64,000 bases of DNA from a virus. Below the pieces are notes generated by a model that made no database searches, was not told where the DNA came from, and was given only the letters and a program-made list of their open reading frames with translations. Shown piece after piece: positions 1 through 51,903 of this stretch. Position 1 is the first letter of the stretch. The number at the start of each line of letters is the position of its first letter. The position numbers and the translations under genes are program-made. The DNA lies in the IMG/VR virus record IMGVR_UViG_3300025759_000064, positions 1 to 64,000 of that record. One strand, 5' to 3'.

Positions 1-3000
1 CCTCTCCACGCTCATTGCCCCACCAATCTATCAGATAGTACTGAGAGGCCACAGATAGGCTTGTTATTCCTTTACCTTCTTCATCGCCCCACCAATCTCT
101 TTCAGTACGTGTTGGGTTTCGTATTGTGCGCACTGGTGTACCGAATGGTCTTGTCATCCTTCTACCGTCACTATATCTTACTTGCCAACCCTCTTGGTCT
201 TGATTTAACATACCTGTGAGATTAGTCTGACGTTCCATGATACCAACGTATGTCGTAGGTTTAGATGCGTTGCTACTACCATCGCTCCACGCATTGCTGT
301 ATGCCTCAGTCTGTACAAGTGGACCTGCATCGTAGTTCAGAGTGTTAGTACCAGCAGCGCTTGAAGCGTCTGCCTCGTATATCGCACGTACGCTATTAAT
401 GTCGTATCTCGGTCTGTTATAGGCTTGACGTACAGCGTTACGGTGTCCATACGGCCTTCTTCTATACTGGTCCATAGCCCCAGTTGATATACCTGATGAA
501 AATGTCAACAAACCGTTGGTTACAGCCCCTCCGGTAGTAGAAGCACTCAATTCAAAAGTAGTAGAGTTAGTTATACTTGAAATCGTTGCACCAGTCGGTA
601 TTCCCGTACCTACCACCATCATTCCGACAACTAGCAGACCAGTATTATCCATTGTTATTGTGGGGTCATTGTTATAATCACAAGTGTTATCTGAAAATAT
701 ATCATCTACCCATTCTAAGTTGCTATTAGATGCGAAATTAGCGCTGGTTGACGTATTATGTACATTCCAAGACGTAGAGGCCATACCGTACAAGTCTAGT
801 TTACTTGTATGTGGACCGCCGCGACTGCCACAAGGCCAATATCCACTAAGCATTAAATTAGTTCCACCAGCATCGTGTGTATTACTATTAGATATCACTT
901 CACCTGTTTTACTTACATTAGGTCTCTTAATTAAGAAATCAAATGGACCTGTACTCATTGCATGTGTGAAATCGTGATAATGTATAGTTTCAAAATGTTC
1001 AGGTAATGAATTATATGCTGCTTTGTTAACTGCATTACCTTTCCAACTACGAGATGTATTATCTGAGAAGTATGTATTAGGTCTACCAAGGTTAGGATGC
1101 CACATACATAGGAATGCATCAGGTACATGATTACTATATGTATCTTGATTACCATTAATTATATCAGGTAATATATTCGCAAATACACTCTTACGTTTAT
1201 TTGTAAGTATTTCACCTGCTGGTAATGTATTGTAACTATGTGTTAAAGTGAGTATTGCATTATCATATATGTTATCCCAAAAACCATCAGCGCCTGATTT
1301 AGCACCTAATGTCAATGTTTTGGGTATATTGATTGTTGCAGCCGTATCTCCGCTAACACTTGTTAGTTCTTTAGAATAGATAGTTCCATTCTTGCCCGTA
1401 TACTGCACTTCTTGTTTATAGTAAGGATACATTGGGAACGTATTTGCGTTATCTACAACTATTGTTCCGCTAGTATTGAAAGATACAACAGTACATTTTG
1501 GATTTAGACTTATACTTTTATTGTATTTATCGTATATGTCAAAGTACAAAGAAGTATATCCGTTAATTGTTAACTGACTTCCTATACTTCCGAAGGTACT
1601 TCTCATAAACATATAGTAATCTTCGGGACTATATTGAGATAGTTTTCTATAATTTGTTGCTTCTGAAACTGCTGACCCGTTATGTTTGATTGCATTCTTG
1701 TGTAATATGCTCCACCATGGTATATGCAAAGTGTGTGCGGGAGTCGCATCGCTAAACATTGTGCTATATGGAAAACCCTTTCTAGTAAATGCGGGGCTTT
1801 CTGTTAATTGTACGCCTACATGGTTATACAACATCAACGGTGGTATGTTCGTAAATTGACTACCTTGGTCATTACTAATATCTAATATCGCTTCATTGAT
1901 GAATACCTCACAACCTCGTACATCTGCTTGCGTTGCTTTCGCTAACACTAATGTCATACCTCCCTTAGTACGGTCTACATTACCATCACTATCCATTTTT
2001 ATGCCAATAACTGTGTTTATCTGTTGACTGGTTAATGCAGCGCCTGAATTATTATGGTAACCGACTAACTGATTATGGAACACGTTAGGTTGTATGACTA
2101 TTTGGTAAGCACCTACTTCCGCAGGGTCGGGGAAGTGTCTGCCTTGTGTATATTCACTAGCGGCCTCAAGTACAATACTGTGTCCTCCGGCTTTATTCAC
2201 TGTCGCTGCTAAAGTTGTGCTTGTACCGTCTGATGACGCTAAAACACCGTAACCGTCATATTTTACACCACTCTCGAACATAAGGGTGAATGCCCCTCCG
2301 TGAATATCGCTGGGCGGCGAAGGTGCGGCGTTTACACCACTAAAATTAATCTCTGCATCCATAGCATGAATGTTCTCTGTTATACCACCTGTGCCTATTG
2401 CTGTGGCTACTGCCGCTTTCTTATTCGTAGATGTTGTATTATCTGCAACTAAACTTGAATCAACAAAACCATTTGTCATTTGGTAATCAATCAAATGTCT
2501 TCTGTATAGGCTTTGGTAAGCAGGGTGCGCCCAGTGTCCGGGTAGCATCGGCATTGTTGGTGTGACGAAGTGATGTCCCATTCTTGGGAATGGCATAGGT
2601 GTCAACACAGGTTTGCTATATGCGTCGTATCCTATTGTCTGTCCTGATACATAGTACAACGTGTTAGCCATATCAGGTGAGTTGCCGCTAACCTCTGCAT
2701 GGTCACGTAATCGACGTGCTGCGAAGAACCTGTTGCTTCCAGCAGGTATGTAATAGGAAGGTACTACTTTTAGATTTGTAACAGTTTGACCTGCCATGAA
2801 TGTGGCAAAGTTGACATCTCCCACCACTGTGATTGTTACGTTATCAGGAACTCCGTCGTTATTAGTATCTTGACCAGCGTAAGTACATACAGCGCCTTCA
2901 TCAGTTGTTGGGTTGTACACACGTAGGAACTTTCGAGTATCTTCTTTAGTACCAAATCCAGCATCGAACACTTGTGGGTCTAATGTAGCGTCTACTGTCA

Positions 3001-6000
3001 ATACGTTAGTGCTAGAATCCCATGCATCGACAGATACTATGTCAGTCTCTACGCCACCTTCATGTGTATAGACAGTTGGATACCTGTGTGTATGTGTGTG
3101 CCCCATCTTTGTGACATGGAAAAATAATGTGCGGTCATGTAACTCATAACTAGTCTGCAATGGAGAGTTGTCATTCCATGCACCTAGTTCTGAATCAAAG
3201 GTTACTGGGTTGATGCGCTCCCAGTTGTGATTTTCATATGTAGGTGCTTGACGTGGGCTTGCTACACTGTTGTCGAATAGATGTCCTATGTGGCTCTCAC
3301 CCATGTCAGGGTGTATCATACCGCCTGTACCAATTGTCTCATGCTGATATGCTTGTATTGGGTCGAATCCTGAACGTACAACTATGTTGCCCGGTATACT
3401 GTTAGGGTCAGGTAACTGTACCTTCAAGTTAGGTATCTTACCACTGTTAGCAAGCGCAGGTGCGTTACCCTTCACACCTCTGTTCTCAGGTATACGGAAT
3501 CCACGTATGATAGTCCCCAGTGGGCTACCACCCTCTATCTTGTGTACTTGCCCTGTCTCATCTCTTACGGTGATGCTTTGGAACTGTATCTCTTCATTTG
3601 GTATGTTTAACACGTTACCAATCTTGTATGGGTGCTTACGCATAAGTTCAGGGTGTGCTAACTCTTGTGCTTGTAGTATAGGCATCATAGCGCTGTTTGT
3701 AGTCTCGAAAGAGAACCTTACGTTACCATATATCTTCTCACCTGTTTGGTATGCGGTGTTGCTCTTTACACGTGTCATCCATGGTACTGCACCAAGACCG
3801 CGAGCGTTGATTGCTGGCATACTGAGGTTACCACCATCCATTCTCTTCCACACTATGTTCTCTACTGAGAAGTTCTTTGCGGCAGAATCTTGATACATCT
3901 GTAATGCGTTTACATCACCCATCCAATAATTAATGGGGAAACCGCTACTATGTGCTGCTGCATATTTATCAGCAGATGTGTTACGTTCTGCATCGTCTGT
4001 ATGTAGTAATGCAGAACCAACAGAATGGTCTAAGTCGAATAGTAAATCACCTGTCTTATTTAGACCCGGTGTAGCGTTTTGCAACTTCAAATCAGTAGGT
4101 GTAGTGCTGTAAAAGTATGAGCCTGAGCCGCCTGAGAATAAAGTATCGGCCCAGTTCCCATTAGATGGTGTGCCGACAGGCACTGTTGTATCTTCAACGA
4201 TTAGAGCCTCTACATTCGGTCCAGCGTTTGCAGGTGCGATGAATCTATCTTGTCCGTGAAATCTTTCGTCCCATTGTGTAGTACCAGCATATGTGATTGG
4301 GTTACTACCTTGTCCTATGACTTGTAACCAGTCACCGTTTGCGGTTATTCCATCTCTATCGTACTTTGCAATTAATGAACTCTCACACTCGTAACTGACA
4401 ACTAGGAATGCGCTACTGTACAGCCCCTGTGGTGTTGTTAGTTCCTTAGGTAATGTAGTAGTATAGTTAGTAGGTGCGACCCATTGATTAGCGTTACCCG
4501 CTTCATCTGTATCATTGAAGTTGTAAGTGTAAGTATCCCAACCTAAACCAGCACTACTACCGCTTGTTAAATCTAATTTAGAATAAAAGCCTGATTTAAC
4601 TAAATGAGTACCTAACGCATTTCCTATACCGTCAATTGTAGGTGTGCTTTCGGGACTCCCTTGCATTGGTGCTACAACAGGTATGTTACTATGTACGTTC
4701 ATTACTGTACCAGCAGTTCCGTATGGTGAGAAGTTAAGCATCTCATGGTATGCGCCTAATCCAGCAGCATATCCTGTACCGCTTGTGTTCTTAGTTATCT
4801 TCAAACTATTCAGATAAGAGTATCTCTCACCATGCCAACCTATTGCACCTATTGGCTTTGTTCTATCAACAGCGTCTACAATACCTGAGAAGTGAACTTG
4901 CGTCATATGGTCACGTGCTGATACATTCTCGTTATTGAAACGCATTGTACCTGCTTTACTCCATACATAAAGAGTATAAGAACTAGAAATAGCCTCACTG
5001 AAAGACCCACTTCCATCTTTGAGTACTTCCCACGTTTCAGGCGCTTCTAGTTTATTTAGGCCGTTTAATCTATTAGGTGCGAGATAGAACCTGACTTTCC
5101 AATCGCTACTATCTGCTAATACTTCCCTAGAGTGATAGCAAGCGAATCTAGTATTAGTTCCTTGATGTAACCTAATCCAACCCGATGTGGGTAATTGTTC
5201 TAATGTTATTTGTGAACCGCTCGATGGGCTATCTATGTAATTGCCAGTAGCACTATTATTTACGTAAGTGGATGTGCCAGCAAGCGGTATCCACCCGTAT
5301 CTATCTTGACGCATCGCATTACCCATAGACGGCATGTGTGTGCCACCAAGAGACTTGAGTGCTCCAGCGCCGGGGAATGCGTTTATTGCAGCGCCTAGTA
5401 CAGTAGCGAGTTCTTCGCCGTTCTGACAACGTGTCGCATCTACTACGATGTATTCCATCTTTGCATCTGCTGTCGCTACGGCCTCGCTACCATTTCCTAT
5501 GTAATCTAGAATGCGCCCTGTAAGCACGCCCGAAGTTCTAAACGCAGTAGGGTGTATTTGGTTTGCACGTTCCCAATTGCTACTCAATACTCTAGCAGCA
5601 GATTTACCCGCGTGTGGTGGATTAAATGTAATTTGATTGTCTAACCATGAGCCGCCCGGATGGAAACCACCATCCATGTGCCATACTGTATCTGCCGCCA
5701 TAGTGATACCGAATCCGATAGTAGGCGTATGCATCTTAGGATGTATATGTGTCAAATCATATCCTATTTGTGCTGTGCCTGTAACGTCGTGTGGTGTGCT
5801 ATCATTGAACTGTTGACCATAATGCCTACCGTGTTCAGGTCTTTGTGAGAACTTACCCTTCCAACAGTAACCAGCAGGGCTTTCCCAATTTACCATCGCT
5901 CTCCAATGGAAACCCGCAGTAGCGTCATAGTATACCTTGCTCGGCGGCATGAAATTGTATTTCTCATTTACAATATGATTTGGGAATACATGTCTTGAAT

Positions 6001-9000
6001 TGGCTATTGATTCGTCTAACGGTATAGAAGCCCACGTGCTACCACTTACGATAACTCTACCCGGAAACGGCTCTTTGGTATTAGCAGCATTACCGCTATC
6101 CGCATCTGCTACTTCTTGTGTAAATGGGAACGCTTGACCCGGACCAAATATTAGGTACGTAGTTTTGTTCTCTACGCTAGTATCCACGTGGTCTTCATAT
6201 CGTGCAGTCGGATGAGCAAATCTCAATACAAGCGGTACGGGCTTTGCTTTTATCTCACCTGCGCTATATGTCACACCACCTTTAGATAAATCAGGTGCTA
6301 GTATGTTCTGTTGATTGAATGCAGGTGGAGTAATACTACCACGATGCTGATTACACAACGCAGCGCCGGGGAAGAAGGCAAACATTGCATTTCCGTCTAA
6401 CATAGCGTAACTCGTAGATATTTCATTTGCATTCTGTAATCCAGTTACACCAGTCGGTCCAGTAGAATATGGATGGGTGTAGAAAGTAGAATAGTCGTTT
6501 TGCGTACCATCGTTTACGTCGAGTGTTACACCGCTAAATCCACCACCAAAGAACAACGGCACGCTGTGGTCTTTGCTACTCTTACCACCACGGAAGTAGA
6601 CTATTGGTTCAGAGAATACGCTACCGAGTGAACGCAATCCGTCAAACTCCTTGTTATTATGGCGTTGCAATATATTTGCTTTAGCCATAGATTGTGGAAA
6701 GTCATCTCCCGCATCTGCTGTTAACCAACTTAATTCTTGTCGAGGGTCAGTACCTGTTTTACTTTCTGCTTCAATAGGATAGTCGCCTAACCATATAGTC
6801 GCTCTTTCACCAACTGGTAATATGACGTTACTTGCTGTCGCACCTGACGGTATAAGAAAGGGGTCTACCTCTCTAGCAGCAGATACTGTAACTTCGGTAG
6901 TCCAATTACTTTGAGAACTACCAAAGTGAACAACGGGGTTATCAATCATTGGTAGTATATGGTCGCCGGATGAACGTGTAAATTGTATACCCTTTAATCC
7001 TTCATTCCAAGTAGAAGTATCAATCGGAGTATTAGTTGAGTCAACTAGATTAGGTGACGCTGTGTTTGAGTTTGGACCTCTTGATACAGTGGTTATTTCA
7101 AGTAAGGTATAGGGTATGTAACCGCAATCGATACCTTGACTAGCATCTATATTTGTGTTAGTTACTGGTCTTGTTCCATGGCCTGTACTTGTACTTGTAT
7201 CAAAATCCCATTCGCCGTTTGTTACCCTATCAACTCTTCTCACTTCACCAAACTCTAAGTGTGACGCATGAATACCATAATCTCGCTTTACAACGCTACT
7301 ATAAGATTGATTAAGAGGAATTATCGGACTTTGGGTATTATACGCTCTAATTCGTATTGCATCATCTTTTACACCCCATTCACCAAAGGTTCTACCATCA
7401 GTGGTATACATCTCTCTGCAATCAAATACATGTCCTTCTTCCGTGTTTATCTCATTACCTGCGTTAATTGCAGCAGCAGTTACAGCAGCAATTAATTCAT
7501 CTGTTACAAGCGTAGTCCAATTTAATACAGAAGCGATTAGTACATCATCGGGTAGTGTTACTAGACCAGTGCAACCGTAGAATGTATCATGGTCTCTCGA
7601 TGCATAAGACACTGTAATTCCAACATCTGCTGCTGCATCATAATCTGTAATTTGTATAATACCATTTTTCTTTGGAAATCCTAAGTATCCTAAGAGGTCA
7701 CCTTTACCACTAAAAGCAGTGCTATATGGTGTTCCACCACCTTGATATGGTGAATTATCAAACGTAATCGCCAAAGTTCCAGCACTCGTATCTTCGACAG
7801 CGCTGACGTGCATTACAGCATTTGGGGCACTAACGCCTCTCCATCTAGCACCTTTCCAATACTGCAATGTTTTTGTGACACCGCTTGCATCTGTATCTAA
7901 TCTACCTGTCGCATCACCAACACCATGCATGTGTTTACCTATTGTAAATCCACCTTGTCCTACATCCCTGTCGTCGAAGAAAACACATACTTCATCCTCA
8001 ATAGTAGAAGGTAATGTGGTATTACTGTTTGCAAACGATTCACCTATCTTACGATAAATGTATCTAATACCGTTTTCTACACCTAAGTTGTCTTTGAATC
8101 TAAAACCGTATAATTGTCCGTTACCTATGTTATCAGAAATTATGTTCGATGTTGGTACGTGGCTTGAATAATCTGAACCAGTATGAGCAGTGCCTTGAGC
8201 GTTAAATGCGCCATACCTATTATTGAACTTAGTCTCACCTATTTTACCAAAACCCCAAGTTCCGACATCGGGCGCAAATCCCGGTACACCGCTTGCTACT
8301 AATCCGCCAAAGTTTATTCTTGAGATAGCCTTTTTACCGACTCTTAAACCCTTGACTAATGAAGATGATGAACCTTTAATGTCTAAAGATTCTGTATTTA
8401 TTGTATTGTGACTCTTTCCGCTTATTGAATCAGACACTGCTCTCAATACGCTACTATCTTCAAACTCAGCGACACTTTCTATTTCTTCACCACTTTCTAC
8501 CGATGTAACGTATTGTTGCAGTGTAGTAATGGGGGCAAACGGTCTACCATGCTTGTTTAATGGCATAGGCGCTGGATGCATATTTTCACCCTCTCTTTCG
8601 TCAGGTAACGCCCAAAAGTTACGCCATCTTCCACCGTGTCCTACTAAGAATTGTGGTTGATAGACACTTTGTCCTTTACTATTATCAAGCCACACACAGA
8701 AGTTTCTACCACTTGCGCCCGGCACTGTACTATGTATGACAATGGTGTACCCTGTATCTCCGTTTAGGTCTTGTACCTCTCTACCTATGTGAGCGCGTAT
8801 GTATCCCATGTGAGTACCCTTGTCACCATTATCTACATTCCAAAATGGTGAAGGGTCATGTGCTGAACCAGTTAGTAGTCTACCGTTTAACGCCGCATGT
8901 TGATTGATTAATCTAACAGCCTCTTCTGTTGCAGATAGCGTATCTACAACCCCATCTTTTTGACTAATCTCACCTAAATCTAATGTTAAACGTCTAACGA

Positions 9001-12000
9001 AGTCCATGTCTTTCCATTGTGGGAGGTGTTGCAATCTACTCTCAGTATGACTAGTCAAGTCTAAAGATGAACTTCTAATACCCTTTAGGCACAAAAATGC
9101 TGGTATAACTCTAGTACCATCAGGGGTATCAAAGAAAGTAGAGGGGTCTCTTAACGAACAATCATTTGTTGCTTCTCTATGTTCTATTAATTTCTTTACA
9201 AACGAGTTTGCATTGTCATTAGGTATTCTAGTGAATGAATGTTTTGCATTTGCTCTTTTATGTAAAACAACAGAATCATCAGTTCTAGGTGTAAGACTAT
9301 ATCCAATTCTAAATCCTGATGTAGTACCACCATAGGAATATCCGGTATGTATGTGATGACCGTGTGCTTTACCGTATAATCTAGCACCCTCTATTTTTCT
9401 ACCATCTGTCGGTAAAGCAGTAGCCAAACTAGCAATAGTACTGCTATCAATTAAATCACTAGTGTGTCTATTTGCTAAGTCGTGTGCATAAGCACTTTCA
9501 ATGAACTTAGATTGCTGTGTACTTCGTATGTATGGGTTCTGCGATAAGAAGCCATTTGTAACATCTATTTGTGTAGTCCACGGACTTGGACCAGCGCCAT
9601 TATATGCAGCGTTGACTTTGTGTAATTCACTTCTTCTTGAATTACCACTTTCTACCACTTCTTTAGGCCAGCCTATTTGTGTAGCCTGTGAACTAGTCTG
9701 CACTTGCATGTGTATATCTTGGAATGCGATGAACTCTTTGTCATGTGCCACGTTGTATAGTAATACACGCGCATGTTCGTCAGTAGACAAGTAAGGGTCG
9801 ATATAGGCTACAACGGGTGCTTGTGCAGATGTAAGTCCGAGTGCTAGATAATTTTCTTCAACTGTTCTGTTTACGTGTTGCACATAGTTTCTTGCAGTTT
9901 CTAAACAAGTATTACCAATCAAGAAGTTTTCTAGAGGAATACTATCTCTTGGGTTAGTTGTATCTAATTCACCCGCGCCATTATCAAACGCATTCCATAC
10001 TTGTGATTCGTTCAACACACCTCTACTCTTAGCAAACAAACCCTCAACCGCATGTGGGTTGTTATACGACATATTTGCCCATACGGTATCACCGTTGCGT
10101 AATCCACCTTGTGCGTATGGATTTAACCACGTAGCGTTTAGTACAGCGTCTTTATCTTCATAGTCGCCAGTCCATACTGCAAGTTTAGCATTAGATGGAA
10201 TAATTGGCCCAGTAGCAGTTAAAGTAACGGTTTGAGTGCCGTTTGCATCAGCACTACCGATACTACTAACTAACCCTATTCTTCGTATTTTGTCCGTTCC
10301 GGTATCTTCCCAATAGTAGAGCGTATCGTCTTTCTTGACGTTCATACCATGTAGGTCATTGACATTTTTACCACTAGCACCGTCAATAGTTATGGTAGAT
10401 GATGTGCTCCCATTTGCAGTGATTGTGACATCAGTAATATTTAGGCTGTTCTTCAATTCACGATAGTATTGAGAACCATCAGCAACTTCTGCTGTAATCG
10501 CTGTACCAAGAATACTTCTGCATTTTCTCGCTAATATTATTTTAGCACCCTCAGGCAAACCGTCTGTTTGTAAGTTTTCATCATCGCTAACGGTTCTTGC
10601 TGTTCCAGCGCCTATGGTTATGGTGGTCGCTGTTACCGCCGTTACCACCCCTACAATAACACCCCCATCATCGTAAAGATTACTACCTACTGAAAATACA
10701 GTAGTAGCATCCACCCCTTCAACGTCAAATGCTGAGGTAGTACCTCCGGTTGTTATGTTTTTCTTAATCACGCCCGTAGAGTATTTATTTGGGGTAAATC
10801 CTGTTGATGTATTGTAAACAAGCACAATACTGTTTTTAGGTACTGCTGTGATTGTCGCACCAGTTAGTGTTTTAATGTGACCGTGATATTGAAACTTATG
10901 GATAGTACCATTATCATCGTATTGTACTTCGTATCCTAAATCTCCAACAGCAGAAGGTGGTGGAGTGTCGTAACCTAAATCGGGAAACTTAGCAAAATCT
11001 TCGGGAGATAACGTTACAATTACTGCTTTATCTTCACCGGATAACGATACTGTTTTTGTAGATAAACTCGTACCACTAGCACGCCTAGATTGTATTTGTG
11101 CAGCGTGTGGATTACTTTCAGGTCCAGCCTTAAACTCAACTGCGCTAACATACTGACGTAATCCGTAATCCACATTACCCCCTTGTGTTTTTACACTAGC
11201 GGTATCATAGTAATATTCATCTCTATTCTCAAAGTCTGATGATGGGGTTATTTCATCAGATGCCATAGGTGTATTACCTTCTTCAAACCCTACACCTCCT
11301 AGATAGACTGGTTGCCCTGCGGCTAAGTCCTCAAAGAAACCCTCGCTATGACCATATGTCATGTCGTCATCTGCTAATGCTAGATACTTGTCAGTAGCAG
11401 GTGCATTTGTATAAAAAGCCCATTTTCCATTAGCCAACCAAACTTTTCTATATCGATAAACGTCATTAGCGAAGCCTTTGTATTCATCTACGTCTGTGTG
11501 AGATTCAGGAAATACGTTCGGGTCATTCACATAAAGTCTCTTATCTGTATTCGATACTCTTCTATATTCAGTGATAAATGTAGAATTAACATATTCTCTT
11601 TTTGCTAATGCAATAGAATAAGCGGAATGCGCTTCTCTATCTGCTGGCTCTGTGTCTATAAATCTTCTACCAACTGGGCTAGGATTGTAAGTATGCGCAG
11701 TATGTGTAGCATCTACATGTATTTTGAATGCGTTATCAGGACCAACAGATGGGGCAAAGAATTGTTTAGAGAAAAATGGTATTTCTGCAACTGCTCTAGT
11801 ACTAGCGTATTGAGTGCCTAGTTGGTAATCATGTTGTACATCGCTCATAGATTGATGCATTCTATCGTTTACAGTAGTGCCGTTTTCTAATTTACTTTCT
11901 TCTCCAAAATTAGGCTCATTATATATTGTAAAGTTAGCGTATATATCTACTCCCACACTACTATGCCCTTCCATCATACCGTTTGCGCGTAGCAAGTTTT

Positions 12001-15000
12001 GTACGGTGGTGTATTCAGTACCATCTGAGCCGATATAATATCCGCTACCTACACTTTGTAATGTAAATACGAATGTGTTACCTGTTTTACTACTATATCT
12101 AGCGTTACTACCGTCTACAAAGTACACTCTTCCATAGCGAGTAAACCCATACGTACCCCAACTTGCTAAATCTTCACTTTCATTATTAAGAGGTTTAACG
12201 TATAATGTTCCGACAGTATCGCCTACACTACTAGCACCCGTAGGCACATTCAACCTAGTCACACTTACAGCGTACGACCTGCGTGTAGAGTATGCTTCGT
12301 GTGCTAACATACTGCGCTGGAATACTGGTCTAGTATCCATAGCACCTTGACCCGGACCACCAAGTGTAACAGTAACAACAGGTGCGTTAGGTTCTATCTC
12401 CTTGACTATATGCGAGTCAGGGCTACCTTTGCCAGTAAAATCAATTGAACGAGATACTAAACTATCTCCTACACCAATGCAACTTAATGTAGTGTAGCCG
12501 CCTTCATTACCTTCGCTTTCTTCTATCGACCTCACCTTTGCTCTACTCATTAAGTAAAGTATAGTTGCCCTATTGAATCTAGTAGACAAATTAACATTAG
12601 CAAGTTGCATACTTCTTCTTCGGTCAGTAGGCTGAATGAAGATTCTGAAATCAGCATTGTTCGTGTCTGCTAAGATATGGTTGTCTATTATATCGTATGT
12701 TTCGTGTATAGGCGATGAAGAAGATACAGTTCCAGTATCAAATTGCCCAGCAGAACCACTATCTAACACTACATCAGGTGCTAGTCTAGAATAACTACCT
12801 TTATCGGTCAAGGTTTTAGTTTGGTCTATTTTGTTTAGATACAGTCTATTGAATGCAGAATTATGTAGACCGCTTGTGCTCACAGATTCAATTATGGCTT
12901 GCGGTGTACCGTTTTGTATAGAGTCTGCATTATTTCTTGGAGTATAATTAGCAGGTGTTAACGTCTCATCAACTTCTGTATCGGCAGAATATCCTTCCGA
13001 AGTATCACCTACTAAACCGTGTTCTTGTACTACTGGACTATCGATTCCTAAATCAGATGCATACACATCTATGTATCCGCCGGGCGCATGTAGTGTCATA
13101 CCTGAACCAATTGCATGAATTATAGAATCGTAAATATACTCTGCACCGCTTACCAATGTATCAGACGAAGGTACAGTTTTCTCTACCATTAGTAGAGGTT
13201 GAACAGTACCACTCATACTTGCACCAGTCAAATCAATCGCATTGTAATGTATTTCTACAAATGGGGAAAGAGATGGTGTTAAGTCTGTTAATCTAGGTAC
13301 GTGAAGTATAGCGACTCTACTTTCTTTAGAGGGGGTAACGTGATAATCTCTAATGTTACTATCGTGATGAGTTTCATCGTTATTCGCATCATACTTGTTG
13401 TATTGCGGTATCGGACCTTTTAGAGCAAATGGGGTGTAATCAAAATCAGGACCACCTATTGCAATCAGTTTTCTTTTACCAGCAGGTGGGCTACTAGTAC
13501 CGTTGTAAGAATTGAATGCTACGCTTACTGTGCTAGAACTAACAACGTTATCTATTACCACATCGCTAAAATCTCTATACACATCTACTAAACTATTTAC
13601 AGTAACTTGTTTTTCTATTCCTTTATGCATATCGCTATACATCACGTCAACAATATCTGCGTTACCGTTACCTTGTTGGTCTATTATTTCATCAATAGCC
13701 TTTGGTAACATGCGTAAGAAAGTGTGTCCTTCAACATGATTCTTAATGTGTCTACCGCTATGTCCTATTTGGAAATCTTCGCTCAGAGTAGTAGGCCACA
13801 CTACTGCAAATGGATTATTTGCATCAGATGTGGTTGTAGCAATAGCACTAGAATAAACAAATCCATGGTTTTCAAAATCACTTTCATCGATTATCATTTG
13901 CCCTGTTCTATCTATAATCTGAGAAGTATAATGAGGCGGTTGATATGGTTTAGATGTTCCACTATCAATCAATAAGTCTGCACCAACTACAACGAAGTGA
14001 TTATCTACATTAGCACTTCTAGAAGTATTCAGAACACCTATTAATCCGTTATTACTATTACTTGTATTAATAAAATCTAAATGGATACTAGATACAGTTA
14101 ATGTAGGGTTTGTATTTTCTAGATTATTTATAGAATGTAATCTTAATCTTTCAGGAGGTTTTTGATTAGGTTTACTTGTTGAAGGCGTTATACCATCAGG
14201 ATTAACTAATATATTGTATGGTACATGAGATATACTTCTAACAACAGTTGAGCCTGAGGAAGAATCTAACACCTCGTAATTACCTGAACTGTACGGTGAA
14301 GAAGTAAAATCAATAGTACCAGTAGTTACTGTATTGCCCGTAAGTTTTGATGCGAGTAACTGAGCATCTGTTTTTGTCATAGTTAATACTGATAACCCAC
14401 TACTACTTGTGTGTGCACTGTAAGTAAAAACATCTTCAATAGGAGCGATAGGCTCTTCAAATCTGTATAGAAGTAAAGTATCACTATCCGATAACGGAGA
14501 GTTACCTTCTATCATTGAAGTCTTGAATGATGCATTAAGATGAATGCCTTCCATCGTACCTCTAAACTTACCACCTTTACCTCCGATGTATGTTTGCTTG
14601 GTAGAGGGCTTTAGCGCTAAGTCTCTGTCTTTGATTGATTGTCTTACAACTAACTCCCCGTTAATGTATAATTCTATGGCTGTGGTTCTTACAGTCGCTA
14701 TTACATGAATCAAAGGTCTATGGTTTTTGTTTAGTTCTGTTGCATCATCTCTGCTACTAACGAATCTATTGTAAGAATCTTGTAAACCTTGATACTCAAT
14801 ATGCGGATATACAGTACCTTCGTATCTATCTGTTGCTAAGGTTGCTGTGGTTAGATAATATCTTTCTTCAATACCTCTACCTTCCATAAATACCTCAAAA
14901 GTTGCTGGACCGGGCGTGTCTATATTACCGAGTGAAAGTTTGTATTGACCTTCTTTCTCTATTATTGTACCGCCACAATCAGGCATTACCCACGCTTCTA

Positions 15001-15205
15001 TTGTTAGATACTTATTGAAAATACCTGATGTTGCTACACTGTCACGTGTAGATAATGGCGCATTCTCAGATAGGATAACTCGCACATCGTCAGTCCCTCT
15101 TGTGGTTCTGTGTCCTAATTCGCTAAAGTCACCTTCGGGCACTATGATACTGTCAGTAATACCATTGAAAAAGAAACCATGAGTCTTACGGCTAATTACT
15201 GTCAA
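1..15205 (-). CDS. Giant distal tail / receptor-binding protein, C-terminus beyond window
   Basis: One minus-strand frame is open from about 15205 to the left edge, giving at least 5,068 residues without a stop. I read it through and confirmed that the frame at both ends and at several internal points (near 3392, 7673 and 12710) is the same. No ATG fits the start. An in-frame TAA lies just upstream, and a TTG at 15203-15205 follows GGGGGA by six bases, so TTG is chosen; a GTG shortly after is the alternative. Residues about 45-200 look like a LamG/concanavalin-A-like lectin fold (LTIEAWVMP, then ELYINGELV, then IGGKGG). Residues about 4,838-4,900 form an Ig-like module also found in the tail tube protein. 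The rest is rich in Gly, Ser, Thr, Asn and aromatics with almost no Cys, typical of fibre or adhesin proteins. It directly follows the tail genes, so a baseplate/fibre role is inferred. Confidence 0.85.
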   Translation of the reverse strand, partial: MTVISRKTHGFFFNGITDSIIVPEGDFSELGHRTTRGTDDVRVILSENAPLSTRDSVATSGIFNKYLTIEAWVMPDCGGTIIEKEGQYKLSLGNIDTPGPATFEVFMEGRGIEERYYLTTATLATDRYEGTVYPHIEYQGLQDSYNRFVSSRDDATELNKNHRPLIHVIATVRTTAIELYINGELVVRQSIKDRDLALKPSTKQTYIGGKGGKFRGTMEGIHLNASFKTSMIEGNSPLSDSDTLLLYRFEEPIAPIEDVFTYSAHTSSSGLSVLTMTKTDAQLLASKLTGNTVTTGTIDFTSSPYSSGNYEVLDSSSGSTVVRSISHVPYNILVNPDGITPSTSKPNQKPPERLRLHSINNLENTNPTLTVSSIHLDFINTSNSNNGLIGVLNTSRSANVDNHFVVVGADLLIDSGTSKPYQPPHYTSQIIDRTGQMIIDESDFENHGFVYSSAIATTTSDANNPFAVVWPTTLSEDFQIGHSGRHIKNHVEGHTFLRMLPKAIDEIIDQQGNGNADIVDVMYSDMHKGIEKQVTVNSLVDVYRDFSDVVIDNVVSSSTVSVAFNSYNGTSSPPAGKRKLIAIGGPDFDYTPFALKGPIPQYNKYDANNDETHHDSNIRDYHVTPSKESRVAILHVPRLTDLTPSLSPFVEIHYNAIDLTGASMSGTVQPLLMVEKTVPSSDTLVSGAEYIYDSIIHAIGSGMTLHAPGGYIDVYASDLGIDSPVVQEHGLVGDTSEGYSADTEVDETLTPANYTPRNNADSIQNGTPQAIIESVSTSGLHNSAFNRLYLNKIDQTKTLTDKGSYSRLAPDVVLDSGSAGQFDTGTVSSSSPIHETYDIIDNHILADTNNADFRIFIQPTDRRRSMQLANVNLSTRFNRATILYLMSRAKVRSIEESEGNEGGYTTLSCIGVGDSLVSRSIDFTGKGSPDSHIVKEIEPNAPVVTVTLGGPGQGAMDTRPVFQRSMLAHEAYSTRRSYAVSVTRLNVPTGASSVGDTVGTLYVKPLNNESEDLASWGTYGFTRYGRVYFVDGSNARYSSKTGNTFVFTLQSVGSGYYIGSDGTEYTTVQNLLRANGMMEGHSSVGVDIYANFTIYNEPNFGEESKLENGTTVNDRMHQSMSDVQHDYQLGTQYASTRAVAEIPFFSKQFFAPSVGPDNAFKIHVDATHTAHTYNPSPVGRRFIDTEPADREAHSAYSIALAKREYVNSTFITEYRRVSNTDKRLYVNDPNVFPESHTDVDEYKGFANDVYRYRKVWLANGKWAFYTNAPATDKYLALADDDMTYGHSEGFFEDLAAGQPVYLGGVGFEEGNTPMASDEITPSSDFENRDEYYYDTASVKTQGGNVDYGLRQYVSAVEFKAGPESNPHAAQIQSRRASGTSLSTKTVSLSGEDKAVIVTLSPEDFAKFPDLGYDTPPPSAVGDLGYEVQYDDNGTIHKFQYHGHIKTLTGATITAVPKNSIVLVYNTSTGFTPNKYSTGVIKKNITTGGTTSAFDVEGVDATTVFSVGSNLYDDGGVIVGVVTAVTATTITIGAGTARTVSDDENLQTDGLPEGAKIILARKCRSILGTAITAEVADGSQYYRELKNSLNITDVTITANGSTSSTITIDGASGKNVNDLHGMNVKKDDTLYYWEDTGTDKIRRIGLVSSIGSADANGTQTVTLTATGPIIPSNAKLAVWTGDYEDKDAVLNATWLNPYAQGGLRNGDTVWANMSYNNPHAVEGLFAKSRGVLNESQVWNAFDNGAGELDTTNPRDSIPLENFLIGNTCLETARNYVQHVNRTVEENYLALGLTSAQAPVVAYIDPYLSTDEHARVLLYNVAHDKEFIAFQDIHMQVQTSSQATQIGWPKEVVESGNSRRSELHKVNAAYNGAGPSPWTTQIDVTNGFLSQNPYIRSTQQSKFIESAYAHDLANRHTSDLIDSSTIASLATALPTDGRKIEGARLYGKAHGHHIHTGYSYGGTTSGFRIGYSLTPRTDDSVVLHKRANAKHSFTRIPNDNANSFVKKLIEHREATNDCSLRDPSTFFDTPDGTRVIPAFLCLKGIRSSSLDLTSHTESRLQHLPQWKDMDFVRRLTLDLGEISQKDGVVDTLSATEEAVRLINQHAALNGRLLTGSAHDPSPFWNVDNGDKGTHMGYIRAHIGREVQDLNGDTGYTIVIHSTVPGASGRNFCVWLDNSKGQSVYQPQFLVGHGGRWRNFWALPDEREGENMHPAPMPLNKHGRPFAPITTLQQYVTSVESGEEIESVAEFEDSSVLRAVSDSISGKSHNTINTESLDIKGSSSSLVKGLRVGKKAISRINFGGLVASGVPGFAPDVGTWGFGKIGETKFNNRYGAFNAQGTAHTGSDYSSHVPTSNIISDNIGNGQLYGFRFKDNLGVENGIRYIYRKIGESFANSNTTLPSTIEDEVCVFFDDRDVGQGGFTIGKHMHGVGDATGRLDTDASGVTKTLQYWKGARWRGVSAPNAVMHVSAVEDTSAGTLAITFDNSPYQGGGTPYSTAFSGKGDLLGYLGFPKKNGIIQITDYDAAADVGITVSYASRDHDTFYGCTGLVTLPDDVLIASVLNWTTLVTDELIAAVTAAAINAGNEINTEEGHVFDCREMYTTDGRTFGEWGVKDDAIRIRAYNTQSPIIPLNQSYSSVVKRDYGIHASHLEFGEVRRVDRVTNGEWDFDTSTSTGHGTRPVTNTNIDASQGIDCGYIPYTLLEITTVSRGPNSNTASPNLVDSTNTPIDTSTWNEGLKGIQFTRSSGDHILPMIDNPVVHFGSSQSNWTTEVTVSAAREVDPFLIPSGATASNVILPVGERATIWLGDYPIEAESKTGTDPRQELSWLTADAGDDFPQSMAKANILQRHNNKEFDGLRSLGSVFSEPIVYFRGGKSSKDHSVPLFFGGGFSGVTLDVNDGTQNDYSTFYTHPYSTGPTGVTGLQNANEISTSYAMLDGNAMFAFFPGAALCNQHRGSITPPAFNQQNILAPDLSKGGVTYSAGEIKAKPVPLVLRFAHPTARYEDHVDTSVENKTTYLIFGPGQAFPFTQEVADADSGNAANTKEPFPGRVIVSGSTWASIPLDESIANSRHVFPNHIVNEKYNFMPPSKVYYDATAGFHWRAMVNWESPAGYCWKGKFSQRPEHGRHYGQQFNDSTPHDVTGTAQIGYDLTHIHPKMHTPTIGFGITMAADTVWHMDGGFHPGGSWLDNQITFNPPHAGKSAARVLSSNWERANQIHPTAFRTSGVLTGRILDYIGNGSEAVATADAKMEYIVVDATRCQNGEELATVLGAAINAFPGAGALKSLGGTHMPSMGNAMRQDRYGWIPLAGTSTYVNNSATGNYIDSPSSGSQITLEQLPTSGWIRLHQGTNTRFACYHSREVLADSSDWKVRFYLAPNRLNGLNKLEAPETWEVLKDGSGSFSEAISSSYTLYVWSKAGTMRFNNENVSARDHMTQVHFSGIVDAVDRTKPIGAIGWHGERYSYLNSLKITKNTSGTGYAAGLGAYHEMLNFSPYGTAGTVMNVHSNIPVVAPMQGSPESTPTIDGIGNALGTHLVKSGFYSKLDLTSGSSAGLGWDTYTYNFNDTDEAGNANQWVAPTNYTTTLPKELTTPQGLYSSAFLVVSYECESSLIAKYDRDGITANGDWLQVIGQGSNPITYAGTTQWDERFHGQDRFIAPANAGPNVEALIVEDTTVPVGTPSNGNWADTLFSGGSGSYFYSTTPTDLKLQNATPGLNKTGDLLFDLDHSVGSALLHTDDAERNTSADKYAAAHSSGFPINYWMGDVNALQMYQDSAAKNFSVENIVWKRMDGGNLSMPAINARGLGAVPWMTRVKSNTAYQTGEKIYGNVRFSFETTNSAMMPILQAQELAHPELMRKHPYKIGNVLNIPNEEIQFQSITVRDETGQVHKIEGGSPLGTIIRGFRIPENRGVKGNAPALANSGKIPNLKVQLPDPNSIPGNIVVRSGFDPIQAYQHETIGTGGMIHPDMGESHIGHLFDNSVASPRQAPTYENHNWERINPVTFDSELGAWNDNSPLQTSYELHDRTLFFHVTKMGHTHTHRYPTVYTHEGGVETDIVSVDAWDSSTNVLTVDATLDPQVFDAGFGTKEDTRKFLRVYNPTTDEGAVCTYAGQDTNNDGVPDNVTITVVGDVNFATFMAGQTVTNLKVVPSYYIPAGSNRFFAARRLRDHAEVSGNSPDMANTLYYVSGQTIGYDAYSKPVLTPMPFPRMGHHFVTPTMPMLPGHWAHPAYQSLYRRHLIDYQMTNGFVDSSLVADNTTSTNKKAAVATAIGTGGITENIHAMDAEINFSGVNAAPSPPSDIHGGAFTLMFESGVKYDGYGVLASSDGTSTTLAATVNKAGGHSIVLEAASEYTQGRHFPDPAEVGAYQIVIQPNVFHNQLVGYHNNSGAALTSQQINTVIGIKMDSDGNVDRTKGGMTLVLAKATQADVRGCEVFINEAILDISNDQGSQFTNIPPLMLYNHVGVQLTESPAFTRKGFPYSTMFSDATPAHTLHIPWWSILHKNAIKHNGSAVSEATNYRKLSQYSPEDYYMFMRSTFGSIGSQLTINGYTSLYFDIYDKYNKSISLNPKCTVVSFNTSGTIVVDNANTFPMYPYYKQEVQYTGKNGTIYSKELTSVSGDTAATINIPKTLTLGAKSGADGFWDNIYDNAILTLTHSYNTLPAGEILTNKRKSVFANILPDIINGNQDTYSNHVPDAFLCMWHPNLGRPNTYFSDNTSRSWKGNAVNKAAYNSLPEHFETIHYHDFTHAMSTGPFDFLIKRPNVSKTGEVISNSNTHDAGGTNLMLSGYWPCGSRGGPHTSKLDLYGMASTSWNVHNTSTSANFASNSNLEWVDDIFSDNTCDYNNDPTITMDNTGLLVVGMMVVGTGIPTGATISSITNSTTFELSASTTGGAVTNGLLTFSSGISTGAMDQYRRRPYGHRNAVRQAYNRPRYDINSVRAIYEADASSAAGTNTLNYDAGPLVQTEAYSNAWSDGSSNASKPTTYVGIMERQTNLTGMLNQDQEGWQVRYSDGRRMTRPFGTPVRTIRNPTRTERDWWGDEEGKGITSLSVASQYYLIDWWGNERGE
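514..693 (-). repeat. Ig-like module, copy A (in the giant tail gene)
   Basis: This 180-bp stretch aligns without gaps and in the same codon frame to 19681-19860 in the tail tube gene. Positions 543-577 are 35 bases identical to 19710-19744. Both copies encode a module running from CDYNNDPTITMD through GTGIP and STTFELSASTTGG, a bacterial-Ig-like beta-sandwich common in virion surface proteins. Confidence 0.9.
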
Positions 15206-15224: not shown

Positions 15225-16361
15225 CTAAGATAGAATCAAATTATCTATCGGTGCGAATATCATATTAAAATTATAAACCGATTCTCCAGCATCGTATGTG
15301 ATATCAAACTTTTGCACTGACCCTTGTATACCAGTAGTTTCTTCTTTCATAGAAAAATCTACACTGGCTGGTAAATTATTTCCTTCCGATGTTTTGTCTA
15401 GTCCATCGTAGTTACCAGTAGGCATGAAAAAGTTTCTTGCAACGTATTGGTCGCCACCAGTTGCTTTCAAAGTAGAATTATACGGTATCTGTATACCAAC
15501 AATGTAATCTTTAAGTTCTTGCGCTCTACCGTTTCTTAACAGTGAATTGTTAATAAAATCGCTCACTCGACCTCTTCTCTTACTGTTGTTGATTATACCG
15601 TATAAATCCATAGTTTTGTCACCAGCAGATTTCTTTCCACCGTCTGACCCTCCGGCAAACTTAGTAACCGACGGTTCTTGTGCTGGTTTTACACCATGGG
15701 TGAAGTCAGGCGTGCTTATGCCCATGCCGCTATTTTTACCTAAACTAGTCATTGCAATGTTTACTATACAATTAAGCGATTCATTATTGTAGTTCACGCC
15801 CTCTTGTAATGTAGCAGTGAAGTCAGAAGAGTATTGTGCGTTTATGTAATCTCTGACAGCAGTTGCCAGTTGTACAGAAGTAGCATTACTTGCATTTACT
15901 AAAATAGTCGGTGTACCCCCTGTTCCGGCATTAGCATCATATTGAGTCGTATCGCTTGTGTTACCACCATCGGTTCTAGAAGCAACGTTTGTAAAACGAA
16001 TCTGTTTTTCATCAGCGCTTACTGCTGTATCAAAAGTCTGTAATTTTATAACACCAGTATGGGTATATAATTTTTCTAGATTTTTTGTTGTGGTGAATTG
16101 AAGGCCACTTTTTGTAGTACCAAAATTAATCGTACCACTGTATGCTGTACTCTTTGTGCCTTCTCTATCATCTGCAATAATACCTTGAATATTTATCATG
16201 GCTTTGTTTATGTTTAAGTCCATACCTACACGCTTACTACCAGTAAAAGGTAAAGCCATTCCACCCACTTTTCTAGAAGTAGAAAGAACCATAGTAGTAG
16301 CATCTAATTCGATGGTGTTACCGTTTTCTTGTATTAGTCTAATCGGAATGCCCCCAGCCAT
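15225..16361 (-). CDS. Tail-associated virion protein (distal tail candidate)
   Basis: A 378-residue protein between the tape-measure-like gene and the giant tail gene, the usual place for a distal tail or tail-tip component. I do not recognise a named family. The N-terminus (IPIRLIQENGNTIELDATT) and the C-terminus (VQKFDITYDAGESVYNFNMI) are beta-strand rich; the middle (about 115-260) is Gly/Ser/Asn-rich and reads like a surface insertion. No Cys cluster or membrane segment apart from a single Cys. It starts at ATG five bases after the tape-measure stop and ends 20 bases before the giant gene's start, so it is part of one tail operon. Position supports a structural role; the exact role is inferred. 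Confidence 0.6.
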   Translation of the reverse strand: MAGGIPIRLIQENGNTIELDATTMVLSTSRKVGGMALPFTGSKRVGMDLNINKAMINIQGIIADDREGTKSTAYSGTINFGTTKSGLQFTTTKNLEKLYTHTGVIKLQTFDTAVSADEKQIRFTNVASRTDGGNTSDTTQYDANAGTGGTPTILVNASNATSVQLATAVRDYINAQYSSDFTATLQEGVNYNNESLNCIVNIAMTSLGKNSGMGISTPDFTHGVKPAQEPSVTKFAGGSDGGKKSAGDKTMDLYGIINNSKRRGRVSDFINNSLLRNGRAQELKDYIVGIQIPYNSTLKATGGDQYVARNFFMPTGNYDGLDKTSEGNNLPASVDFSMKEETTGIQGSVQKFDITYDAGESVYNFNMIFAPIDNLILS

Positions 16362-16365
16362 TCAA

Positions 16366-17211
16366 TCACCTACCTCTTCCTACACCACCGATGCTGCGTG
16401 ACATTTCTTGTTGCACTAAGTCGCTGATTTCTCTAGCCAATTCTCTTTTATCAGTACGGTCAGTAAGTCCACTTAGATTGAATGTCATATTGAAAGTGTG
16501 CCCTCCACCGCCACTAGGTGAATCTCCACCTCCACCGCCACCAGTGACAGCGTTTATGGCACTGCTTCCTAAATCTTTGACTCCACCAACTACTGATTTG
16601 CCAAAATTAAATATTCCCTTAAGAGCGCCACCAATTGCATCGAACATTCTACCTAATGTTTTATCGTATACAGTTTGCATTACACTTGCAACGGTATTCC
16701 AAGCACTGCTTATTGTATCAAATACACCTAACGCTGCTGTTTTTAGTCTATCAAATGGTTTTCCAATAATGGCTTCAAATGTAGCACTCATTCCATTAAA
16801 AATTAATGTACCAATAGTTCTGATTCCGTTAAAGGCTAAGGTAGCACCTGCTTTTAATCCCGACCATAGTTTACCAAAAGTACCATTCCATATAGTTTTG
16901 ACATTATCTAGGGCTTTACCCCACTCACCTTTGAATATGTTAACCCAAAACATCATTGCCTCTTTCATTAAGTTCCATATTGGTACAACGGTAGCGTTCC
17001 ATATCGTTACTATTGCATTTGTTAAAGGCTCAAAGGCTTCTTTAATTCCATCAAATACTTTTCTCGCTACTTTACCAGCAGCCCTGAATGCTTTACCGAG
17101 TGCCTTACCTATACTGCTGGCTACACTACCGAGTGTACTCATTGTACTACCTATGCCGCTAAGACTACTAGATACACTGGCTAAAGAATTGAGTAATGCT
17201 CCTAATGCCAT
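16366..17211 (-). CDS. Short tape-measure-like tail protein
   Basis: A 281-residue protein with a Ser/Gly/Ala-rich helical start (residues 1-50), several amphipathic or hydrophobic helices (about 60-200), a run of glycines near 225-240, and a C-terminal tail (FNMTFNLSGLTDRTDKRELA) like the ends of many tape-measure proteins. It follows the two-frame tail assembly chaperones, the classic tape-measure position. Tape-measure proteins usually exceed 600 residues; at roughly 1.5 angstrom per residue this one would set a tail of only about 40 nm, so either the tail is short or the length is set elsewhere. No peptidase or lysozyme insert is visible. Confidence 0.65.
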   Translation of the reverse strand: MALGALLNSLASVSSSLSGIGSTMSTLGSVASSIGKALGKAFRAAGKVARKVFDGIKEAFEPLTNAIVTIWNATVVPIWNLMKEAMMFWVNIFKGEWGKALDNVKTIWNGTFGKLWSGLKAGATLAFNGIRTIGTLIFNGMSATFEAIIGKPFDRLKTAALGVFDTISSAWNTVASVMQTVYDKTLGRMFDAIGGALKGIFNFGKSVVGGVKDLGSSAINAVTGGGGGGDSPSGGGGHTFNMTFNLSGLTDRTDKRELAREISDLVQQEMSRSIGGVGRGR

Positions 17212-17212
17212 A

Positions 17213-17850
17213 CTAATCTTCTCCTTCTAAAAATGAATAATCGAAATCTACCACGTCTGTGCTTTCTGTACTATTTTCTAGGTTTTGTTTTCTCTCTGCA
17301 ATACGCTCTTCTTCATTAATAGCAAGCGCCCAAGATAGGGATTGTTTGAATATCGCCTCGCTCATCTGATAAACCTCATGTAGTGATATGTTGTAATGTT
17401 TCGCCACGATGTATGCGAACAACTGCATCTGCATCTCTAAATCGCTAGGGTTTTTAATTACCTTTTTCTTTAGAAATTGCCGAACTCTCAGTTGTTCGCT
17501 TTCGTAAAACCCCCTTGCATTGCCTCCGCCAGTTCATCGGGCTTTGGTAATAGAGAGGCTATTTGTTGACCGACATATGCATTTAGGTTCATCATGTCGT
17601 CTACGGTAAGGTCGGGGTTCGTTCTTACGACCCAGTTTGAAAATGCGTAACGCCAGTATCCTTCAAGATTCAGCGATATATCATCACCATCCATCTGAAA
17701 CATACTTTGTGCGGCTTGTTGTACATCAAAGAAAGTTAATTCTCTAATCCATACTTCCATCATTAAATCAGGATTTTCTTTGTCTACACGGATTTCGTGT
17801 CGCTGTTCATTCTTCTTCGCCAGTAAGTTCTGTTTGTCTACTATCGTCAT
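17213..17850 (-). CDS. Tail assembly chaperone, -1 frameshift fusion (gpGT type)
   Basis: The chaperone frame 17488-17850 and the following frame ending at 17213 can be joined by a -1 ribosomal slip on GGGTTTT (17506-17512). From the slip site the -1 frame has no stop down to 17213: it reads YESEQLRVRQFLKKKV, then NPSDLEMQMQLFAYIVAKHY. The fusion would be 212 residues (115 + 97). In many long-tailed phages the G protein and the G-T fusion chaperone the tape measure in just this arrangement, between tail tube and tape measure. The downstream frame has ATG codons near 17434 but no clear ribosome binding site, which favours the fusion over a separate gene. Confidence 0.75.
17488..17850 (-). CDS. 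Tail assembly chaperone (gpG type, unshifted product)
   Basis: A 120-residue acidic protein; residues about 20-60 include VDKENPDLMMEVWIRELTFFD, and the helical middle ends in LLPKPDELAEAMQGGFTK. The size, the position between tail tube and tape measure, and the slippery site five codons before the stop fit the abundant G-type chaperone. The start ATG follows GGAAGTGA and overlaps the last 44 bases of the SAP-domain gene in another frame. Sequence family not recognised directly; the call rests on context plus the frameshift. Confidence 0.7.
   Translation of the reverse strand: MTIVDKQNLLAKKNEQRHEIRVDKENPDLMMEVWIRELTFFDVQQAAQSMFQMDGDDISLNLEGYWRYAFSNWVVRTNPDLTVDDMMNLNAYVGQQIASLLPKPDELAEAMQGGFTKANN
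17506..17512 (-). promoter_or_regulatory. -1 ribosomal frameshift slippery heptamer GGGTTTT
   Basis: Read on the minus strand, the zero-frame codons are GGG GGT TTT ACG. The heptamer G-GGT-TTT matches the X-XXY-YYZ rule for -1 slippage, and the -1 frame stays open for 97 codons. It sits near the end of the chaperone gene, as in lambda-like tail chaperone genes. Confidence 0.75.
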
Positions 17851-20859: not shown

Positions 20860-21309
20860 TCATGGGATTAACTCTGCAAAGATAACAACTTCTATCTGAA
20901 AGGTCATTCTATACAGTTTTTTGCTTCTATCTGATAAATCGGTACGTGTTTTGTACACAAGTCTATCGAAATTGACACCATCACCTTTTCTTTTAAGATG
21001 TACGCATCTTCTTAATTCGTTCTCCATCTTTTTTAGTTGGTCTCTACTTCTCGTAGTACGCATATCTACTGTGATGTTGATACGTGTAGTGACGAAATCA
21101 TACAGCATTTCAGGTAACTCTTCGTTATGTGCCGTTTCAAAGACCATTACATAATCCGTTCTATCAAGGTCAAGTCTCTTTCCACGCTCAGGTGTTTCAT
21201 CTGCTACATCAATAATAACGGGTTTGAAATTATTAGTATTGGCTCTATTCCAATTATTCTTTAGTACACCTAGTACTACATCAATACCTTCATCGAATGT
21301 TGCTACCAT
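20860..21309 (-). CDS. Tail completion / terminator-like protein
   Basis: A 149-residue protein directly upstream of the tail tube gene. It starts FDEGIDVVLGVLKNNWNR and contains alternating strands (RINITVDMRTTRSRDQLKKM; ends FQIEVVIFAEL). This resembles small alpha/beta tail-terminator or head-tail joining proteins in size, layout and position. I see no catalytic motif. It overlaps the next upstream gene by seven bases, consistent with translational coupling. The call is from context and predicted fold rather than from a recognised family. Confidence 0.55.
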   Translation of the reverse strand: MVATFDEGIDVVLGVLKNNWNRANTNNFKPVIIDVADETPERGKRLDLDRTDYVMVFETAHNEELPEMLYDFVTTRINITVDMRTTRSRDQLKKMENELRRCVHLKRKGDGVNFDRLVYKTRTDLSDRSKKLYRMTFQIEVVIFAELIP

Positions 21310-21635
21310 TTCGCAAACTCCTTCTTACGCTTTTCACGCTCATGGGCTTTGAAATCGGGTACTAACTTGCCCCCATCGTTTTTGACTTTGTATTCCATCA
21401 GTCCCGGCGATTCGGTCATCATGCGTCTATTGACTCTATCTTTCAACGCTTTTTCTTGTTCAACTGTCATTTCTTCCGGCTCTAACTCTCTTTCTGAGCG
21501 CTCAACAGCCTTACGATATTCAGATGGCCCTTCTGTAATAGCCTTCTGTAAATCCGCTTGGTATTCTTTTTTACTTAGTTCTAAAGTTATGGCTTCTTTC
21601 CATTCTTTGTAAACTATTTTCTCTGTATCACTCAA
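21303..21635 (-). CDS. Small charged connector-region protein
   Basis: A 110-residue, highly charged, helical protein (KEWKEAITLELSKKEYQADL near the start; REKRKKEFAKW at the end) with no Cys and no membrane segment. It overlaps its neighbours on both sides by a few bases, within the connector/tail-completion cluster. Family not recognised. A head-tail joining or assembly role is plausible from position only. Confidence 0.6.
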   Translation of the reverse strand: MSDTEKIVYKEWKEAITLELSKKEYQADLQKAITEGPSEYRKAVERSERELEPEEMTVEQEKALKDRVNRRMMTESPGLMEYKVKNDGGKLVPDFKAHEREKRKKEFAKW

Positions 21636-27465: not shown

Positions 27466-27510
27466 ACTAACCCTTGTTACGTAATGCCTTACTACATATA
27501 TGCTGCGGGA

Positions 27511-32925: not shown

Positions 32926-32936
32926 GACATTCCCTC

Positions 32937-51902: not shown

Positions 51903-51903
51903 T

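Follow-up and report, generated by a model that had tools for sequence, protein, structure and literature searches.

Within the order Magrovirales, group A is the Apasviridae and group B the Aoguangviridae. PMC10768690, PMC12999244 and PMC10160649 name Poseidoniales (MGII) archaea as the presumed hosts of magroviruses, and give PolB, a clamp loader, a chaperonin, HMG-CoA lyase and halovirus-like morphogenesis genes as magrovirus features. These viruses are common in the surface ocean, according to PMC10160649, and none has been cultured so far (PMC10768690). Two haloarchaeal systems serve for comparison: HVTV-1, one of the siphoviruses of the Druskaviridae, and HFTV1. According to PMC12494034, cryo-EM of HFTV1 reveals a trimeric tail tip with a predicted glycan-binding domain, which anchors the fibres and is lost on ejection, and a tape measure of ~341 residues that spans a tail of 560 A. 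Proteins of huge phages reach 7,694 aa, and some of these are tentatively regarded as structural (PMC7162821). We describe here a giant gene from the tail module of a marine virus. In size it is like the largest huge-phage proteins, and since those reach 7,694 residues, its length alone is not new.

Gene content and the halovirus-like morphogenesis module

The stretch analysed, hereafter the window (64,000 nucleotides), makes up the opening 64 kb of a virus record of 110,919 bp. Judged by its gene content, this record is a magrovirus, an assignment made at the level of the order (Magrovirales), and hence a marine, tailed, presumed Poseidoniales virus. It encodes a family B DNA polymerase (PF00136, E 2.2e-24), a clamp-loader (RFC) small subunit (E 8.8e-44), an ERCC4 nuclease, a PD-(D/E)XK nuclease, a thermosome (L003:13916-15415, E 3e-122) and an HMG-CoA lyase-like enzyme (window 54773-55642, E 6e-64). 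The polymerase, the clamp-loader subunit, the thermosome, the ERCC4 nuclease and the lyase are shared with magroviruses, as are an HVTV-1-like major capsid protein (MCP) and a circular map of ~112.0 kb, which lies inside the magrovirus range of roughly 90-118 kb. The thermosome was found in all 15 long giant-bearing or MCP-related records that were searched. A search of 50,697 phage records with the MCP gave 11 matches, every one an archaeal virus, with HVTV-1 as the best (33.6%).

Caudoviricetes morphogenesis genes lie on the minus strand and were recognised by family matches: the terminase large subunit (37195..38676), the portal protein (34232..35962), the prohead protease (26086..27465) and the MCP itself, of HK97 fold and SU10/HVTV-1 type (24881..26050). 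Leftward from the capsid gene, and on the same strand, the order is that of HVTV-1: a gp125 homologue, placed by position in the head-tail connection region (21628..23193, hhalign 94.6%), a gp127 homologue (20860..21309, hhalign 94.3%), the 759-aa major tail tube protein corresponding to gp128 (18566..20845, hhalign 93.4%; Phage_tube_2 E 3e-4, below cut-off) and a tail assembly chaperone-like protein resembling gp129 (17488..17850, hhalign 74.5%, E 2.7e-5). A short tape-measure-like protein of 281 aa follows (16366..17211, minus strand), with matches to PHROG tape-measure families at E down to 1.5e-12, and then a 378-aa protein (15225..16361, minus strand), the giant and a 471-aa hub-like protein. 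The 378-aa protein occupies the baseplate-tail-connector position, and its putative role is taken from this position, with no support from sequence; it is conserved, being present at 52 of 55 loci. In several loci of a second clade of relatives (L129:5413-9999, L126:6811-9999, L151:7077-9998), the connector-position gene consists of two tandem members of ~416-860 aa each.

The giant begins 19 nt after the connector-position gene, and its stop touches the start of the hub-like gene. Comparison of the 471-aa protein with HVTV-1 gp133 gave hhalign values of 23-39%, 24% identity over 115 columns and a common 'N.VTVQG' motif, which weakly suggests that it is the hub and the best counterpart of gp133. 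Downstream of it come a 114-aa protein, which is conserved, and two fibre-like proteins (819 and 1,193 residues), which diverge far faster than the giant. The head and tail genes of HVTV-1 and of this virus are collinear up to the tube and chaperone genes, and probably the hub, but the place of the giant, between gp132 and gp133, is empty in HVTV-1. No HVTV-1 tail protein could be linked to the giant, either by hmmsearch with its filters off or by hhalign of 14 slices against 14 proteins, and a counterpart of it is missing from HVTV-1 as well as from three other haloviruses.

Several features were observed elsewhere in the genome. A second very large frame lies between the protease and portal genes (window 27511-32973; 1,820 aa, TTG start), and its only match was a weak one to DNA ligase, below cut-off (E 0.0038). 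An N-terminal tag, AWxxLK (typically 'MTAFDxAWxxLK'), marks nine of 129 non-overlapping ORFs whose proteins are otherwise different, and was seen just once elsewhere in ORFs. Eight tagged ORFs lie on the minus strand of the window (48660-49136, 49133-49363, 50337-51992, 53267-53614, 53611-53883, 55621-56304, 56277-56648 and 56645-57187) and the ninth on the plus strand at L002:17154-17822; the motif may serve these proteins as a shared signal for targeting or packaging. An ArdC-type anti-restriction protein, with an ArdC N-terminal domain and a zincin-like metallopeptidase, is encoded at window 60683-61630.

Extent, start and conservation of the giant frame

The giant frame is a real gene. Its ORF translation runs on the minus strand from window position 15205 to 2, with 5,068 codons from a TTG and no stop, so that an unbroken frame exceeding 5,000 codons with a non-ATG start, as a sequence-only reading of the window had claimed, is indeed present. 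Such a length is far beyond chance: across 200 base shuffles of this DNA, stop-free runs reached at most 165 codons, and the remaining five frames of the real stretch are stop-free for up to 55-181 codons. Codon differences from the relative L085 comprise 1,216 synonymous and 853 non-synonymous ones, which shows the giant to be a protein under constraint. Going upstream from the TTG, a stop in the same frame is reached 5 codons away; the earliest ATG of the frame is codon 74. Six relatives (L103, L105, L106, L107, L109, L112) have an ATG at exactly the codon of the TTG, before an identical 'TVISRK', which makes the TTG credible as start; five others (L101, L102, L108, L110, L111) also have TTG there. 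On these alignments, TTG is well supported as the giant's start codon, though not proven.

The end of the gene had been placed outside the window. The frame does leave the window, but the record itself also ends at this point, which is why the giant runs off. Extending leftward, as had been proposed, did yield the stop, at the opposite end of the record. The record IMGVR_UViG_3300022178_002229 (L012) carries window bases 1-1500 without a difference and, after another 1,083 bases, matches the right end of our record at 99.99% over 8,917 bases; it supplies the 1,082 bases that are absent between the two record ends, and the giant frame is open through this gap. Since L012 bridges both ends, the record represents a cut circle or a permuted genome of ~112.0 kb. 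On the minus strand of the opposite record end (L004), a frame runs in from beyond the edge for 151 residues before its stop at L004:10464, which corresponds to record base ~110464 (G000). The complete giant comprises 5,580 residues and takes up ~15% of the genome; as the sum of its two parts its mass is 607.6 kDa, which agrees with the first estimate of more than 500 kDa. The window holds codons 1-5,068 (2..15205), and the last 512 residues lie outside it; record bases 110464-110919 encode the final 151 of these. The expectation that automatic callers would miss the gene holds mainly as an edge effect of the window and the record, and a 60%-identical relative of the N-terminus is already in UniProt/BFVD, where this best BFVD match (A0A1B1IU10) carries no name.

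In a first clade of relatives (clade 1), we found 78 loci with relatives of its last 1,000 window residues, 77 of them free of stops between the locus edge and the match, while L010 has an internal stop. The first 800 residues match 17 of the 18 clade-1 records searched, with frames open for 5,501-5,690 codons; in the 18th, L063, the contig ends before the N-terminal part. In clade 2, whose N-terminus is 30-37% identical, the giant was matched in all 14 records: eleven frames span 5,173-5,624 codons, a twelfth spans 4,401 and the last two break off at 960 and 1,673, and the four complete frames measure 5,483-5,624 codons. A check seeded with the HVTV-1 MCP, for which 13 of 80 loci were examined, found the giant in nine of nine marine records and in none of four haloviruses. 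One of these marine records, G058 (the record of L306; frame over 27094-30606), has the longest frame seen, of 6,362 codons. Among 24 MCP-bearing records tested, drawn from 80 loci that were kept of 394 stretches and picked mainly for long contigs, 17 matched; the contigs of the other seven end within ~12.4 kb downstream of the MCP, and the queried part begins ~14.5 kb downstream. All tested MCP-bearing magrovirus-like records that reach the giant's position carry it. A scan of GTDB genomes returned the giant on two short contigs only, in MAGs labelled Cytophagaceae and Maricaulis, which we take as mis-binning.

The giant can be aligned end to end at 49-83% identity within clade 1, and between clades 1 and 2 it is collinear at 42-44% identity; 958 columns, counted along the 5,516 residues of L085, are invariant. 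Differences cluster in a few islands (window residues ~1400-1600 and ~4800-4900), and cross-clade consensus identity is 0.25 in the first 200 residues versus 0.41 overall. Judged from these alignments, the whole chain is conserved in magroviruses, and not its length alone. The frame is broken in some contigs (L010, L129/G019, L148/G021, L153), and at most of the breaks inspected two long open frames meet or overlap, the pattern expected from single-base indels.

Predicted domains and shared modules

The first ~250 residues of the giant appear to form a LamG/concanavalin sandwich, weakly suggested by sequence and well supported by the predicted fold, in agreement with the LamG-like head noticed at the outset. 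This N-terminal lectin-type domain (residues ~10-254; 14444..15178, minus strand) matches Laminin_G_3 at E 1.6e-5 and 25.5 bits, under the Pfam gathering cut-off of 27.6, and the family was detected at E<=0.001 in 12 of 28 giant relatives (best 3.4e-8). An AlphaFold model of residues 1-1180 is strand-rich (pLDDT 60.4, pTM 0.53), with the LamG domain mostly at pLDDT 65-90 apart from some weaker stretches, and the head of the model resembles PAPP-A, PTX3, neurexin, laminin and CBM40 at fold Z 12-15. The likeness to this LamG/pentraxin/neurexin/CBM40 fold covers residues 10-254, the head of a 5,580-residue chain. Partial Foldseek matches to clostridial toxin binding domains (query TM-score 0.08-0.11, rmsd ~17-20) were read as the lectin sandwich only.

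For the last 1,180 residues, AlphaFold gave a poor model (pLDDT 37.7) in which a single barrel of ~95 residues stands out as confident; conclusions are drawn from residues ~4566-4660 alone, and absences from the fold lists are no evidence. Both folding alignments (28 and 42 rows) were kept below 92% identity, and the long C-terminal rows L169, L189 and L183 were dropped. The eight best fold matches of the small beta-barrel (1226..1510, minus strand) are all tail proteins of phages or gene-transfer agents, led by phage lambda gpJ (Z 8.4, rmsd 2.8, 76 residues), with unrelated barrels following from Z 6.2 down. Because the rest of the C-terminal model is poor, the resemblance to lambda rests on these ~76 residues, and the rest of gpJ is unmatched; the predicted barrel may be a generic tail barrel. 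Structure prediction, which the sequence-only reading had proposed to run in overlapping pieces, covered the first and last 1,180 residues and recovered the LamG domain and this one barrel. The Ig-like module of the same reading gained no support from sequence families: no Ig family was detected at E<=0.5 in five slices or at E<=0.1 in the C-terminal slice.

Beyond Laminin_G_3 and chance-level rows, the giant gave no PHROG, Pfam or PDB-profile match (PDB profiles covered both ends), and no enzyme or protease family was found in its slices by family profile search. A tblastn search with the first and the last 1,000 residues encoded in the window returned zero matches in 50,697 phage records. 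Internal repeats were likewise absent from 595 slice-versus-slice profile comparisons (highest probability 43%, over 41 columns), and a repetitive giant adhesin was rejected for lack of tandem or dispersed repeats. A tape measure was rejected as well, given the missing PHROG match, the strand-rich head and the separate tape-measure-like gene. The highest 19-residue hydropathy in the window part is 1.85, which is not strongly membrane-like.

One insertion module of the giant (residues ~4835-4917; 455..703, minus strand) is common to the tail tube protein, where sequence comparison places it at residues 329-423 (19586-19870, minus strand). The two copies share 62% amino-acid identity over 95 columns (E 1.5e-31) and, at window 530-703, 77% DNA identity over 172 nt. 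This insertion of ~60-95 aa may have prompted the Ig-like claim. Most relatives have no tube-shared insertion in their giant, and in other records a different insertion is common to the giant, the tube ORF and a small 209-aa protein beside the MCP. The simplest reading of these sequence likenesses would be that exposed modules are exchanged between virion proteins, which fits a location of both the giant and the tube protein on the particle.

Proposed role at the tail tip and competing explanations

We consider it probable that the giant is the tail-tip protein of magroviruses, that is, a baseplate or adhesion-device protein made as one chain of ~5,580 residues and carried on the virion. This proposal follows from its place between the tape-measure-like and connector-position genes on one side and the hub-like gene on the other, and is backed by whole-chain conservation, by the LamG fold and by the tail-protein matches of the C-terminal barrel. 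A few copies would assemble below a short, non-contractile tube, and the conserved body would act as a scaffold that joins tube and hub to the fast-changing fibres encoded just downstream. The LamG head, which is among the parts that differ most between the clades, could bind glycans of the archaeal envelope, and binding would open the hub and let the genome out. By analogy, the tail may plausibly be short and its tip very large, since the tape-measure-like gene is short and the ~341-residue tape measure of HFTV1 spans 560 A. The tip of HFTV1 serves as a model for how the giant may work; it is made of separate proteins (connector gp41, hub gp44 and fibres), unlike the single chain proposed for magroviruses, and profile searches against PDB found no sequence link between the two. 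Against a tail tip, the resemblance to lambda stands just ~2 Z units above unrelated barrels and extends over ~76 residues, known tail proteins have no sequence match to the giant, and the hub assignment is weak.

LamG as a sign of a tail tip is further weakened by the presence of such domains in many predicted phage proteins. The same commonness would suit a virion protein located off the tip, such as a tail-side, neck or outer fibre protein or a capsid decoration or whisker, in which LamG serves reversible adhesion. The insertion modules shared with the tube protein and with the 209-aa neighbour of the MCP, as in surface-exposed decorations, agree with such a location. However, the giant has the hub-like gene as its direct downstream neighbour and the connector-position gene upstream, and its whole-chain conservation is unlike that of typical outer fibres such as those downstream; a position off the tip is unlikely in our view, though it deserves serious weight.

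The giant could also be a polyprotein that is cut by a protease, of the virus or of its host, into several tail proteins which other viruses encode separately. The distal tail of HVTV-1 is spread over several genes, and the barrel near the C-terminus could be part of a different product from the LamG at the N-terminus. Yet none of the HVTV-1 tail proteins matches any slice of the giant, searches of the chain found neither repeats nor a protease family, and hub-like, tube and tape-measure genes exist separately, which makes such processing highly improbable. We give still less credence to a protein that is ejected or secreted to act on the host envelope or inside the cell and that is no stable part of the virion: size and lectin head would be compatible with it, but the gene is embedded in the late tail module, and the searches turned up no enzyme family and, in the window part, nothing strongly membrane-like. 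An assembly artefact or chance read-through, to which the broken frames in a few contigs might point, is refuted by the relatives and has a practically negligible probability, as independent records share the intact frame, shuffled DNA reaches 165 codons and most breaks resemble single-base indels.

Returning to the tail-tip proposal, a bolder version of it appears doubtful to us. One non-repetitive chain of ~600 kDa would replace most of a multi-protein baseplate, representing a class of virion protein without described homologues, and would be folded by the thermosome, for which the chaperonin gene would be kept. Folding of the giant by the virus thermosome is speculation.

A giant tail protein of magroviruses was not described in the literature we searched, and the texts of PMC10768690, PMC12999244 and PMC10160649 that were consulted do not mention one, although an earlier description may exist. 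Already known is the relative of the N-terminus, deposited in UniProt without a name. What seems new is the occurrence, across magroviruses, of a conserved, non-repetitive, single-chain protein of such size in the tail-tip position. PMC10160649 lists Laminin_G_3 as an auxiliary metabolic gene in four magrovirus groups. Among the ORFs scanned here, the sole Laminin_G_3 match is the head of the giant, and since this is a tail-module protein, the label 'auxiliary metabolic gene' is probably wrong for it. Naming the giant corrects this annotation and yields a marker for metaproteomics. A conserved gene that takes up ~15% of the genome and combines a lectin-fold head with the tail-tip gene position offers a handle on how these viruses find and enter Poseidoniales.
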